NCBI GenBank assembly: GCA_007279775.1
Contig: QYPD01000009.1
Span: 1 to 13,284 of the forward strand
Source of the DNA: Spirochaetia bacterium
Lineage (GTDB): Bacteria > Patescibacteriota > Minisyncoccia > UBA6257 > UBA9933
Length of the DNA stretch: 13,284 nt
Reading direction: 5' to 3'
The first letter of the stretch is position 1. Each line of letters opens with the position of its first letter. Shown in pieces: positions 1,260 through 12,744 of this stretch. The notes beneath the pieces were generated by a model. The model had not been told where the DNA came from, ran no database searches, and saw nothing but the letters and a program-made list of their open reading frames with translations. A program made the position numbers and the translations under genes.

Positions 1260-1414
1260 TTATGCCCAGTAACTCAACTCGATAGGTTTAATCATGATTT
1301 ATCGGTTTTGGTTACTGGGGATATGAAAATAATTAATTAATAAATAAATTAAATTCACTCAATAGTTGTTGATTAAACTAATAAATCACAATCGAGTTGA
1401 GTTCACTGGGTATG
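1260..1414 (+). repeat. Family I structured intergenic element, copy 1 (rpsC-rplP)
   Basis: The element fills the whole spacer from the rpsC stop to the rplP ATG. Left arm L is 1261-1283 and distal right arm D is 1391-1414. They pair over 23 left-arm positions with one bulged base on the right (C1404) and two G-U wobbles, and D includes the start codon at 1412. A proximal arm P (GTTACTGGG, 1311-1319) is perfectly complementary to CCCAGTAAC inside L (1265-1273), with an inner CGATA/TATCG pair at 1280-1284 and 1300-1304. A short M segment (ACTCAA, 1357-1362) can pair with TTGAGT in D (1397-1402). L:P plus M:D therefore competes with L:D. It closely resembles the copy at 3103-3254. Pairing is read by eye, not computed. 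Confidence 0.85.
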
Positions 1415-2031: not shown

Positions 2032-2186
2032 CATGCCCAGTAGTGAAAACTCGACATTAGCTCGCCTCGCAAAATAAATTTTCCGATAAATTATAAGGTC
2101 GTTATTATGATAAAAACATATTAAAATAAACAAAGATTCTTCGGCTCGCTCTATTTTGCGCAGTCGAGTTTCTACTACTGGGTATG
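2032..2186 (+). repeat. Family I structured intergenic element, copy 2 (rpmC-rpsQ)
   Basis: Left arm 2032-2055 pairs with right arm 2163-2186 over 24 positions: 21 Watson-Crick pairs, two G-U wobbles and one A-C mismatch. The last three bases of the right arm are the rpsQ ATG, and CAT at 2032-2034 is its exact complement. Inside, CGCAAAATA (2068-2076) is perfectly complementary to TATTTTGCG (2152-2160), extending the stem past an asymmetric loop. The outer CCCAGTA/TACTGGG is shared with copies 1 and 3. The middle of the arm differs on both sides in a compensating way (GAAAACTCGAC against GTCGAGTTTC). The proximal competing arm of copies 1 and 3 is not seen here. Confidence 0.82.
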
Positions 2187-3102: not shown

Positions 3103-3254
3103 TATGCCCAGTAACTCAACTCGATAGAGTTTAATCATGATTTATCGGATTAAGTTACTGGGGATAATAAAATAATTAATAAATAAATTAAAATTTACTC
3201 AATAGTTGCTGATTAAACTAATAAATCGCAATCGAGTTGAGTTAACTGGGTATG
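3103..3254 (+). repeat. Family I structured intergenic element, copy 3 (rplX-rplE)
   Basis: This is a close relative of copy 1. Left arm L is 3103-3125 and distal arm D is 3231-3254. They pair over 23 left-arm positions with one bulged base on the right (an A where copy 1 has C) and two G-U wobbles, and D ends on the rplE ATG at 3252. Proximal arm P (3154-3162, GTTACTGGG) is perfectly complementary to L's CCCAGTAAC, and M (3197-3202, ACTCAA) to TTGAGT in D. AGTTTAATC just inside L can extend the long stem with GATTAAACT near 3211-3219. The single-stranded middle is AT-rich and differs from copy 1 by small indels, while all four arms are kept. Confidence 0.85.
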
Positions 3255-3949: not shown

Positions 3950-4105
3950 AAGAGCAACCCGAAACTACCCGCCTCGACTCGCCGTCAAGGCGAGGCGGGC
4001 GAATTCATCCGAATGCCCCGAATGAATCCGAATATAACAATATAATTAAAAACATTCGTAGCCATTTGTAGATTCGGATAAATTTGTAGATTGGGATCGG
4101 TTTAT
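3950..4105 (+). repeat. Composite spacer rpsN-rpsH: GC hairpin plus family II repeat
   Basis: The first part has a GC-rich hairpin unlike its AT-rich surroundings. CCCGCCTCG (3968-3976) is perfectly complementary to CGAGGCGGG (3991-3999), while CTCGCC (3978-3983) alternatively pairs with GGCGAG (3989-3994). The second part has two ATCCGAAT units (about 4007-4032), then the family II right half at 4048-4096, almost identical to 1-49. ATTCATCCGAAT-type and ATTCGGATAAAT-type units are mutually complementary, so the region can fold back on itself, though less regularly than the rplR-rpsE copy. The last 20-odd bases before the start match those before rpsE. No T-run follows the GC hairpin, so it is not an obvious terminator. 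Confidence 0.75.
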
Positions 4106-4489
4106 ATGTATATAGATTTATTGACAAAAATTAAAAATGCCCAGGCCGTCAAAAAAGAAACCGCCAAATCGGCATATTCAAAAATGGACGAGCGGATTTT
4201 GGAAATTCTTTTGTCAAAAGGGTATATTTCGGGTTTTGAAAAAAAAGGCAAGGGCGCCAAGCGCGTTTTTGATATCCAGCTGAAATATGAAAAAAATAAT
4301 GACGGGGCTATCACCGGAATCAAATTTGTCAGTAAGCCTTCACGTAAGATATATATCGGCTATAAAGACATAAGGCCGATAAAATCGGGTTACGGATTTA
4401 TGGTTATTTCTACGCCCGACGGCGTATTACCCGGCGGAGAAGCGCGAAGGAAAAAAGTTGGAGGAGAATTATTATTTGAAATTTGGTAA
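4106..4489 (+). CDS. rpsH: 30S ribosomal protein S8
   Basis: S8 is a primary 16S rRNA binder of the central domain, and in E. coli it also represses the spc operon. From the ATG at 4106 it has 127 residues. The N terminus MYIDLLTKIKNAQAVKKE matches the family's D-LTRIRNA opening. The C-terminal GYGFMVISTPDGVLP and GGEARRKKVGGELLFEIW correspond to the G-G--I-STS-G------A----GGE-L--+W ending. A TTG 15 nt upstream (4091) is in frame but belongs to the repeat shared with rpsE and would add residues without family support, so ATG was preferred. rplF starts 9 nt after the stop. Confidence 0.96.
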   Translation: MYIDLLTKIKNAQAVKKETAKSAYSKMDERILEILLSKGYISGFEKKGKGAKRVFDIQLKYEKNNDGAITGIKFVSKPSRKIYIGYKDIRPIKSGYGFMVISTPDGVLPGGEARRKKVGGELLFEIW

Positions 4490-5061: not shown

Positions 5062-5421
5062 ATGAAAAAAAGAAAGGTTTTAAATCAAATAAAGGAAAGG
5101 AGAAAAAAAAGGACAAGGGCAAGATTGTCCGGTTCTTTGGAGCGCCCCCGTTTTTCGGTTTTTAGGAGCAACAGTTATACTTATGTTCAAATAATAGACG
5201 ATGAAAACGGAAAAACCTTGGCAAGCGCCTCAACTATGGAGTTAAAAAAACAGACAAAAGCGGTTGGAAAAGAATTGGCGGAAAAGCTCGGGGAGCTTAT
5301 TGCCAAGAAAGCCGTTGAAAAAGGTATTAAGAAAGTCGTTTTCGACAGGGGAAGCTATAATTATCACGGTCGGGTTCAAGCTGTTGCCGAAGCTGCCAGA
5401 AAAGGCGGATTGGAATTCTAA
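5062..5421 (+). CDS. rplR: 50S ribosomal protein L18
   Basis: L18 binds 5S rRNA and helps dock it to the central protuberance together with L5. The 119-residue protein has a basic N terminus ([14 protein letters not shown]), then [20 protein letters not shown], the conserved RP-L-V-RS---I-AQ-ID block. It ends [29 protein letters not shown], the family's V-FDRGG--YHGRV-A-A-AARE-GL-F. The ATG at 5062 gives the normal family length. A long family II hairpin separates its stop from rpsE. Confidence 0.97.
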
Positions 5422-5534
5422 CGCGATCCGAAACTACGAATGCATCCGAATCTACAAATAAATCCGAATAACTATAAAAAATATTTGTAGCCATTCGAAG
5501 ATTCGTATCAATTTGTAGATTGGGATCGATTTAT
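5422..5534 (+). repeat. Family II intergenic inverted repeat (rplR-rpsE)
   Basis: This is the most regular family II copy. The 36-nt left arm at 5424-5459 and the 36-nt right arm at 5493-5528 align without gaps, with 28 complementary positions and one further G-U pair. The arms are built from ATCCGAA, CTACGAAT and CTACAAAT units on the left and their complements on the right. The loop is AT-rich. The right arm ends six bases before the rpsE ATG. The spacer runs from the rplR stop to the rpsE start, as in the family I elements, but the sequence is unrelated to family I. Confidence 0.82.
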
Positions 5535-6017
5535 ATGTATAAAGGACAAATAAGACCTAAAAGCGAATTTAAGGAAAAAGTTTTGGATATGCGTCGCGTG
5601 ACGCGCGTCGTTGCCGGCGGCAAAAGGTTCCGTTTCCGCGCGACAGTTGTCATTGGCGACGAGAAAGGAAGAGTCGGAGTTGGGATAGCCAAGGGCTTGG
5701 ACGTGGCGCAGGCGGTGGACAAAGCAAAATTAAACGCGAAGAAAGGATTAATAACCATTTTTTTAAAAGACAGAACAGTTTCGCATGAAGTGGAGGCCAA
5801 ATTCAGCGCGGCAAGAGTTCTCATCAAGCCGGCGAAGAATGGTCACGGTCTTAAAGCTGGAGGAGCGGTTCGCGTGGTTTTGCTTTTGGCTGGAGTCAAA
5901 GACGCCACGGCAAAATGTATGGGCAGGACTAAAAATAAATTGACTAACGCTTTGGCGGCGATGGAAGCGCTTAAAAAATTGAAAATTGAAAAATCAAAAA
6001 TCAAAATGACAGTTTAA
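5535..6017 (+). CDS. rpsE: 30S ribosomal protein S5
   Basis: S5 lies at the mRNA entry side of the small subunit and affects decoding fidelity. The N-terminal dsRNA-binding-like fold is seen in RRVTRVVAGGKRFRFRATVVIGD, and the conserved GRVGVGIAKG follows. The C-terminal domain has the AARVLIKPAKNGHGLKAGG and VRVVLLLAGVKD blocks. From the ATG at 5535 the protein has 160 residues. The in-frame TTG at 5520 lies in the repeat shared with rpsH and was not used. The last ten or so residues (KIEKSKIKMTV) are encoded by an AAAATTGAAAA/ATCAAAAA-type repeat that continues into the spacer. L30 does not follow. Confidence 0.97.
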   Translation: MYKGQIRPKSEFKEKVLDMRRVTRVVAGGKRFRFRATVVIGDEKGRVGVGIAKGLDVAQAVDKAKLNAKKGLITIFLKDRTVSHEVEAKFSAARVLIKPAKNGHGLKAGGAVRVVLLLAGVKDATAKCMGRTKNKLTNALAAMEALKKLKIEKSKIKMTV

Positions 6018-6546: not shown

Positions 6547-6652
6547 TCCGAAAATTTAAATCCGAATTCACGAATGGCTACGAAAAATTAACTTTATCAT
6601 TATTCGGATATATTCGTAGATTTGGATGAATTCGTAGGTTCGAATCGCATTT
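6547..6652 (+). repeat. Family II intergenic inverted repeat (rplO-secY)
   Basis: ATCCGAA, CACGAAT and GCTACGAA words on the left (6546-6585) are answered by TTCGGATA, TTCGTAG and GGATGAATTCGTAG words on the right (6603-6638). For example CTACGAA at about 6579-6585 is complementary to TTCGTAG at 6613-6619, and CGAATTC to GAATTCG. The loop is about 25 AT-rich bases. The spacer ends at the secY ATG. Compared with the rplR-rpsE copy the arms are less regular and slightly out of register. Confidence 0.72.
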
Positions 6653-8691: not shown

Positions 8692-8831
8692 ACCCAGTAA
8701 CGCTACTTCAATGTCTTGCTTTTGAAAAAGCAAGAAACGGAGCAGGTTGCCGGGTAAGAAGATTAAATAAAAAAATATCACTTCAGTCCAATCACGATTT
8801 ATCGTGATTAAGTTGAAGTAGTGTTATGGGT
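8692..8831 (+). repeat. Divergent family I-like structured element (adk-map)
   Basis: Left arm 8692-8711 (ACCCAGTAACGCTACTTCAA) pairs with right arm 8812-8831 over 19-20 pairs with one bulged G and one or two G-U wobbles. A proximal arm at 8746-8755 (GTTGCCGGGT) can pair with the outer left arm (nine of ten, one G-U). Inside are two perfect hairpins: TCTTGCTTTT/AAAAGCAAGA (8714-8735) and AATCACGAT/ATCGTGATT (8790-8809). ACTTCA near 8780 can pair with TGAAGT in the right arm. This is the same four-arm plan as copies 1 and 3 with a mostly different sequence. Unlike them, the start codon (8840) lies eight bases beyond the right arm. Confidence 0.78.
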
Positions 8832-12106: not shown

Positions 12107-12361
12107 ATGGATAAAGAGTTTCTTTCAACAATTGAAATTGCCTCACTTTTGGGTATTAGCAGGCAGGCAGTTTTTAAAAGAATTAAAGCCGGTGAGATAA
12201 AGGCGCGAAAAATCGGCCGTAATTTTGTGATTAACAGAAAAGACATTCCGGGAATTACGGGCAAGGTTTTAACGCAAGAGCAGAAATCGGAAATTCAAAA
12301 ATCAGTTGATAAAACCTTTCGCGAGTATGGCGAGACTTTAAGGTTATTAGGGCAGGAATGA
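12107..12361 (+). CDS. HTH-domain (excisionase/MerR-like) putative antitoxin
   Basis: The 84-residue protein begins with a winged helix-turn-helix of the excisionase type: LSTIEIASLLGISRQAVFKR (about 6-25), then IKAGEIKARKIGRNFVINRKDI. Such domains bind DNA. A linker and an amphipathic C-terminal helix (about 56-84, with KTFREYGETLRLLGQE) could wrap the partner toxin. The stop overlaps the start of the Doc/Fic gene (ATGA), a typical antitoxin-toxin arrangement. The gene has its own promoter overlapped by TTGAC half-sites, suggesting autoregulation. The antitoxin role is inferred from context. A canonical Fic-inhibitory S/T-x-x-x-E-G/N motif is not clearly present. A phage- or transposon-derived excisionase is the alternative. 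Confidence 0.8.
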   Translation: MDKEFLSTIEIASLLGISRQAVFKRIKAGEIKARKIGRNFVINRKDIPGITGKVLTQEQKSEIQKSVDKTFREYGETLRLLGQE

Positions 12362-12744
12362 AGATCAAAGAATTAACAATTGCCGAAGTAGAATATATCG
12401 CTTTTTATTTGGCAAATTCTACCCGTTTCCCCAATGTTTTGGAAAGCTGTTTAATAACTCCTTTTGCTTCCTTCGGCGGTAAAACCGCTTATCGGGGCGT
12501 CATTGGCAAGTCGTCAATGCTTTTTTATTTAATGATTAAAAATCATCCTTTTCAGAACGGAAATAAACGGATTGCAATGACAACGCTTATGTATTTTCTG
12601 TATGAAAATGGGAAATGGTTAAGGGTGGACAATCAAGAACTTTATAATTTCGCTAAATGGGTCGCCACGAGTAATCCTAAGTTGAAAATTGAAACCGTAA
12701 AAGCGGTAGAAAAATTTATTGAAATGTATATAATAAAGTTATAG
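12358..12744 (+). CDS. Doc/Fic-family toxin
   Basis: Doc-type Fic proteins modify a translation factor or other target, arresting growth; P1 Doc phosphorylates EF-Tu. The hallmark HPFQNGNKR (residues 63-71) fits the Doc version HxFx-[DN]-[AG]-NKR rather than the AMP-transferring HPFxxGNGRxxR. It is followed by the IAMTTLMYFLYENG helix of the family. Length is 128 residues, Doc-like, with no extra domain. The N-terminal TIAEVEYIAFYLA helix resembles the L--EE-I-IH opening of the family. It overlaps the HTH gene by 4 nt, so the pair is probably a type II toxin-antitoxin module with a non-Phd antitoxin. Activity on any target is inferred. Confidence 0.88.
   Translation: MKIKELTIAEVEYIAFYLANSTRFPNVLESCLITPFASFGGKTAYRGVIGKSSMLFYLMIKNHPFQNGNKRIAMTTLMYFLYENGKWLRVDNQELYNFAKWVATSNPKLKIETVKAVEKFIEMYIIKL

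Follow-up and report, generated by a model that had tools for sequence, protein, structure and literature searches.

Results

The rpsC-rplP junction and its predicted fold

The window analysed here, a stretch of 13,284 nucleotides, covers the S10/spc ribosomal operon (rplV, rpsC, rplP and onward to secY, adk and map, gene names that we presume from recognising the translations) and comes from a partial host genome (G000) of 427,610 bases that is 64.6% complete. The junction between rpsC and rplP is occupied by a 146-bp element (copy 1; 1265..1410, + strand), delimited by a DNA search of its own genome and by its ends and flanks, whose two arms, L (1265-1284) and D (1391-1410), lie on the + strand. 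The arm sequences at this junction are TATGCCCAGTAACTCAACTCGAT for L and ATCGAGTTGAGTTCACTGGGTATG for D. A TATG direct repeat borders the element on the left (1261..1264, +) and on the right (1411..1414, +), where we take the ATG at 1412-1414 to be the rplP start codon, and a single TATG stands at the empty junction of a relative (L039). Within the element, a P box (1311..1319, +; GTTACTGGG) constitutes a third copy of the terminal motif with the potential to pair with L, and a short M segment (ACTCAA) lies at 1357..1362 (+). The duplicated ATG also opens a mini-ORF, MPSNSTR (1262..1285, +), which stops at the end of the L arm and may be functional. A preliminary description of this junction had read L, P, M and D as the four competing arms of an attenuator- or riboswitch-like RNA, and their positions and sequences were given correctly.

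Folding of positions 1255-1430 (176 nt), which that description had proposed as a check, returned a minimum free energy of -48 kcal/mol against a shuffle mean of -25.8 (z -6.0, with 0 of 200 shuffles as good), which is far beyond chance. The L:D pairing is present in this structure and hides the rplP start codon as had been claimed, the three AUG bases being unpaired at predicted frequencies of 0.7, 5 and 10%. When D is forced to be single-stranded, L pairs instead with P in a fold of -33.1 kcal/mol; as such, the posited alternative does exist, but the gap of approximately 15 kcal/mol leaves the two states unbalanced at equilibrium, and the same restraint that yields L:P in the rplE copy, the copy at 8693 and two congener copies does not yield it in the rpsQ copy. 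The M segment, although found at the place assigned to it, is weak and not conserved (the exact motif occurs in two of six A-type copies) and is without support as a working part.

Copies in the window, in a congener and beyond

The window carries four copies of the element, which fall into three subfamilies. Copy 2 (2036..2182, +), of a different subfamily from copy 1, occupies the rpmC-rpsQ junction with CATG to its left and TATG to its right; copy 3 (3107..3250, +), of the same subfamily as copy 1, occupies the rplX-rplE junction with TATG on either side; and copy 4 (8693..8830, +), representing the third subfamily, lies between adk and map with TAAA on either side, its end falling 9 nt 5' of the map ATG (8840). 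A DNA search of the window's own genome with the element gave 22 matches, seven of them at E<1e-4 including the element itself, and the left end ATGCCCAGTARY occurs 16 times there and 16 times in the congener (G001), with no occurrence of a reversed control pattern.

In the congener, the rplP junction holds an element at the same place as in the window, and the rplE site is likewise filled in both genomes. The rpsQ site is filled in the window genome only, its empty version in the congener reading CATG; since the filled site reads CATG/TATG, the right-hand T may be the element's own. Conversely, an element at rpsC is found in the congener only, where its right part is visible before the contig ends. 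Presence and absence thus differ between congeners, as the mobility of MITEs entails. Across the arms, the two species differ at 0 of 40 sites in the rplP copy and 1 of 40 in the rplE copy, compared with 13/99 and 8/102 in the respective interiors and 74/247 at fourfold sites in five neighbouring genes. In the two species, copies that share a gene are, however, no closer than copies at different genes (8/102 and 10/99), which suggests either that each species acquired its insertions at these sites independently or that the copies were homogenised; as both are possible, conservation of the arms is not by itself proof of function.

A search with rpsC gave 61 matches, 30 of them with loci, from which 25 junctions were parsed (the window's own, the congener's and 23 others) and five were not. 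The end motifs CCCAGTA and TACTGGG are absent from the rpsC-rplP junction in all 23 parsed relatives besides the congener. Seventeen of these element-free junctions have a gap of 2-21 nt and six hold 86-273 nt of other sequence. One (L039) reads TAA TT ATGTTATTGCC, the predicted empty site, and another (L033, genome G006) has a different insert of 273 nt with a terminal long hairpin built on AACCCAGCCGTCT.

Copies matching the exact pattern were found in 8 of 22 family genomes and in 10 of 379 genomes of the phylum, seven of these ten carrying more than one. A scan of a genome collection returned at least 114 stretches with the element, and the 80 that were loaded comprise 58 with candidate-phyla lineage names (Doudna-, Azam-, Niyogi-, Wolfe-, Kerfeld-, Uhr-, Moran-, Portnoy-, Magasanik-, Lipton-, Jorgensen- and Terrybacteria, and the labels Parcubacteria group and Patescibacteria group) and 22 with no lineage name. 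NCBI taxonomy assigns Wolfe- and Kerfeldbacteria to the Patescibacteria group, alongside which it lists Doudnabacteria as a candidate phylum; the remaining names we take to be Patescibacteria. No exact match to the one pattern scanned was found among viral contigs.

Two other features of the window were noted in passing. A second, unrelated repeat family, ATTCGTAGCCATTTGTAGATTCGGAT..., has inverted copies at 1-50, 4045-4115, 5420-5544 and 6560-6651 (before rplV, rpsH, rpsE and secY), which also end close to start codons, with 52 matches in the window genome and 21 in the congener at E<=0.01. At 12107-12744, a small HTH/excisionase-like ORF is followed by an ORF with the motif HPFQNGNKR, which we presume to be a Doc/Fic toxin-antitoxin pair.

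Anatomy of the element

The element measures approximately 110-160 bp (112-149 bp in the census described below), is multicopy, and is too small to hold a transposase gene. Its matched terminal inverted repeats of about 20 nt have the fixed ends CCCAGTA...TACTGGG, and a short direct repeat of 3-4 bp (TATG at copy 1) lies on either side. Arm sequences differ between lineages but match within an element: among elements picked by their 7-nt ends (a single census place with poor arms was excluded), positions 13-19 are 95% paired within the element as compared with 59% when arms are swapped (maximum of 500 swaps 64%; 77 distinct pairs), a strong compensation of the L:D pairing across lineages. A recurrent mismatch falls near positions 10-11 (ATA against ATA, or GA against AG). 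Among the other L:D mismatches, in a set filtered for arm match by a filter that favours neither type, G.U and A.C are about as frequent, at 12 and 10 for positions 13-24 and 0 and 3 for positions 1-7. This lack of G.U bias makes the arms look constrained as DNA, and selection on a sense RNA L:D stem is not favoured.

At least seven of the nine P box positions form Watson-Crick pairs with L in 51 of 169 elements, as against 7.4 for shuffled interiors and 8 for a same-strand control, and G.U pairs per P:L pair number 0.56 as against 0.29 in shuffles, a hint that sense-strand L:P pairing may matter in some subfamilies. Beyond the arms, an interior fold was considered and rejected, being weak on both strands (mean z -1.8 to +0.9 by genome).

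Several structural variants were observed. Longer relatives with the same ends measure 233, 234 and 312 bp (L087, L091 in the congener, and L127, respectively); two elements in tandem (L160, L276, L292) have a single 4-nt spacer between them, TATG or TACA, which is what insertion at the border of an existing element should produce; and in one genome (G110; L274-L296) 25 of 26 copies carry a perfect hairpin of 7-13 bp some 20 nt in from the right end, the stem of which varies on both sides between copies.

Position, orientation and target duplication

The sets used for the arm mismatches, the Shine-Dalgarno motif, the -10 box, the P box and the mini-ORF had been selected in part for matching arms or with a pattern that included an ATG, and therefore the rates of start-codon position and of duplication were taken from a census of six genomes whose search pattern contained no ATG. 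It returned 59 places, 58 of which were kept; a place with mismatched arms (G267 C5) and duplicate entries for L312 and L280 were left out, L296 standing in for the L280 entry. ORFs were simple stop-to-stop calls. As the sequences in every count are related, the counts here and elsewhere do not represent independent events.

Of the 58 census elements, 47 end 0-2 nt before the ATG of an ORF. Forty-six of them end 0-1 nt 5' of an ATG with which an ORF of 38 or more codons begins, one (L325) lies 2 nt from the ATG of a gene that looks like murA, and the other 11 are elsewhere. The start-codon copies all have one orientation relative to the gene, the orientation in G010 being judged by eye because the script rule had left it untyped. 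Eight of the 11 non-start copies face the next ORF and one (L297) faces away, while two are undecided (the third copy of L292, which sits between convergent ORFs, and L306, with no ORF near). Among 85 elements matched by the pattern that requires ATG, the right-hand ATG has an ORF of 38 codons or more in 78.

Exact 4-bp flank repeats border 35 of the 58 elements, and 3-bp repeats a further nine. In rows not scored as start codons, exact 4-bp repeats occur in 6 of 12 as against 4 of 132 cross pairs, and the duplications at non-start copies are varied (TCAA, CCTA, TTGA twice, TTTA and TACA), which argues that the flank repeat is, at least usually, a target-site duplication; the same variety rules out strict targeting of NATG. 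At start codons, 29 of 46 copies have an exact 4-bp repeat, eight a 3-bp repeat and nine neither, these last comprising three CATG/TATG, two AATG/TATG, one TATG/CATG and three with no clear repeat. In the 80 loaded loci, TATG occurs 258 times at predicted starts and 539 times elsewhere between genes, on ORFs of at least 80 codons, a threshold that misses small genes and so inflates the non-start figure. A preference for TATG, together with loss of insertions inside genes, would accordingly predict about one third of copies at starts and not the four fifths found. In 9 of 58 cases a frame of 60 or more codons from upstream extends 8-49 nt into the element, which means that certain insertions reach the end of the preceding gene. 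Two of the 85 elements matched with ATG (L159 and L069) sit instead at TATGGTATAAT, which resembles an extended -10 promoter.

The genes targeted

Upstream of the left ATG, TANNNT peaks at 12-15 nt, with 51 occurrences against 12.4 expected in 90 genes that are not tightly behind another; in 45 tight junctions the corresponding figures are 8 and 4.1, which is less clear. A Shine-Dalgarno-like motif precedes only 10 of 135 target genes. Judged from these sequence signals, the targets would seem to include many leaderless starts in addition to tight operon junctions. A leaderless gene with an insertion at its start would yield an mRNA whose first codon is the duplicated AUG. The frame of the mini-ORF meets a stop within its first eight codons in 6 of 142 elements, compared with 36.9 in shuffles, and is open in the other 136; frame +1 is likewise low in stops (29, with 47.0 expected). 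At the right end, 41 of 135 elements also have a TANNNT, at a distance of 10 nt from the ATG. We rejected a leaderless promoter there, as the box stands at 10 nt and not at 12-15, and in a minority of copies.

The search for a mobilising enzyme

No mobilising enzyme was found in searches for the Y1 and DDE_Tnp_1 families. Y1 transposases occur in 13 of 22 family genomes, that of the window included, and in three of six genomes of a second set. No Y1 match was obtained in G010, which is rated 100% complete and holds nine copies of the element, or in G116 and G248. None of 12 Y1 loci checked, out of 22 matches, is flanked by both element ends, a single motif being present in one (L232). On this patchy distribution and the unflanked loci, Y1 was set aside as the mobiliser, as was DDE_Tnp_1 (PF01609), which occurs in 1 of 10 genomes at a locus without CCCAGTA or TACTGGG. 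Nor did pairs of ends at long range reveal an autonomous copy in the loci examined, since all pairs 700-3200 bp apart belong to separate short elements with their own partners 128-159 nt away. Lone ends number 4/55, 0/12, 2/8 and 1/5 in four genomes, where none shares a contig with another, and three of the seven have a decayed partner 138-198 nt away.

Discussion

The copies described here very probably represent a family of non-autonomous, MITE-like mobile elements of Patescibacteria, as judged from their sequences. They have the matched terminal inverted repeats, the target-site duplication, and the short, multicopy nature of MITEs, and a transposase acting in trans would be their mover. 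On the best account that the sequences allow, what is remarkable about the family is its position at start codons in one orientation. A copy may survive there because the left ATG keeps the original start context while the right duplicate supplies the gene with its ATG, and a single orientation may arise because the downstream gene can be expressed in no other, or because the target orients the insertion. A fixed single orientation is unusual for ordinary cut-and-paste transposons and counts against the MITE account, as do the 17 of 46 start-codon copies without an exact 4-bp repeat and the lack of an autonomous copy among the loci and four genomes examined.

The supposed RNA switch before rplP is one copy of this small mobile DNA repeat and not an L16-specific attenuator; the regulatory reading of the rpsC-rplP structure is only partly supported by the sequence. 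It is quite improbable that the structure is a cis-regulatory RNA of the ribosomal operon in which L:D hides the rplP start and L:P opens it. The pairings and the alternative fold exist, the P box is enriched with its excess of G.U pairs (0.56 per pair, 0.29 shuffled), and the arms differ at 1 of 80 positions between congeners as compared with 74 of 247 fourfold sites. However, the same element is dispersed before unrelated genes, none of the 23 parsed relatives other than the congener has it at this junction, L:D has no G.U excess, 15 kcal/mol separate the folds with L:P lacking in the rpsQ copy, and between two species copies at the same gene resemble each other no more than copies at different genes do. 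A self-removing, intron-like RNA would sit comfortably in housekeeping genes, and its excision would restore the start codon, yet such an RNA should be tolerated in the middle of genes, and no mid-gene copy was noticed in the census of 58 (nine of which do have an upstream frame running 8-49 nt into the element); we regard this explanation as scarcely credible.

A single-strand element of the HUH/Y1 type (IS200/IS605, REPIN/RAYT-like), inserted 3' of NATG, would explain both the fixed orientation and the carriage of the right TATG, and it accords with the C/T mismatch with the CATG empty site and with the occurrence of Y1 transposases (13 of 22 family genomes, the window's among them, and three of six in the second set). 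We nonetheless consider it unlikely, given that the 4-bp duplications vary in sequence, that Y1 has no match in the 100% complete G010 with its nine copies, in G116 or in G248, and that both ends flank none of the 12 Y1 loci checked among 22 matches. Compatible with the mobile-element account, and an addition to it, is the tentative proposal that an inserted copy may set the translation or transcription of the next gene, selection keeping sense copies at starts; the route might be the hairpin with reinitiation from the mini-ORF, cleavage by RNase III next to the ATG, or a right-end promoter. The 47 of 58 copies at start codons in uniform orientation, the arms conserved between congeners, the mostly open mini-ORF frame and the right-end TANNNT 10 nt from the ATG in 41 of 135 elements are consistent with such a part. 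Against it, that box lies at 10 nt where those of the left ATG lie at 12-15, and most elements lack it; the mini-ORF counts are phylogenetically non-independent and a second frame is also depleted in stops; and arm conservation could reflect recent insertion or gene conversion. More doubtful still is the fuller version, in which a mobile element of Patescibacteria that recognises start codons, or is retained almost exclusively at them, duplicates the ATG, re-heads the gene and doubles as a portable translation switch built from an upstream mini-ORF and a hairpin pairing both ATGs. In that mechanism the RNA arms would close the hairpin that pairs the two ATGs, and ribosomes on the upstream gene or the mini-ORF might, at a guess, melt L and thereby free the ATG of the gene.

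Among known systems, Correia repeat enclosed elements have an end sequence of their own and a TA duplication. They are MITEs of Neisseria that are short, with inverted ends and many copies mostly just 5' of genes, according to excerpts of PMC10969869. The same excerpts describe an arm RNA cleavable by RNase III and promoters in some copies (PMC10969869). The present family shares the short length, inverted ends and copy number but lives in a different host phylum, lies mostly exactly at the start codon in fixed orientation, and has a duplication of 3-4 bp. With prokaryotic MITEs in general it shares inverted ends, target duplication, copy number and the lack of a transposase gene, and differs in that no autonomous partner was found in the loci and genomes searched, in its start-codon position, and in lineage-specific arms that change together. 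REPIN/RAYT systems are hairpin-forming repeat pairs without target duplication; our elements are similarly hairpin-forming and occur in genomes often with Y1 transposases, but their target duplications vary and none of the 12 Y1 loci checked is associated with them. Ribosomal protein leaders such as the S10 leader are structured RNAs beside a ribosomal gene, as copy 1 is, although our element is not tied to ribosomal genes. The conservation at the same gene in relatives that marks ribosomal leaders and riboswitches was not found, and Rfam gave no match at the gathering score, with only chance-level matches at E up to 10. In the open-licence literature, including passages of PMC12641178 and PMC10969869, we found no published description of the element.

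For annotation, it follows that structured junctions in operons of this kind should be checked for the repeat before they are called riboswitches. Mobile elements usually harm or reshuffle gene control, and copies that, within highly reduced genomes, stand one way round where housekeeping genes start pose the question of how the start is found, or why only this placement survives. As many of the target genes are seemingly leaderless and most are without a Shine-Dalgarno-like motif, these elements may serve as a probe of how translation starts in such bacteria.
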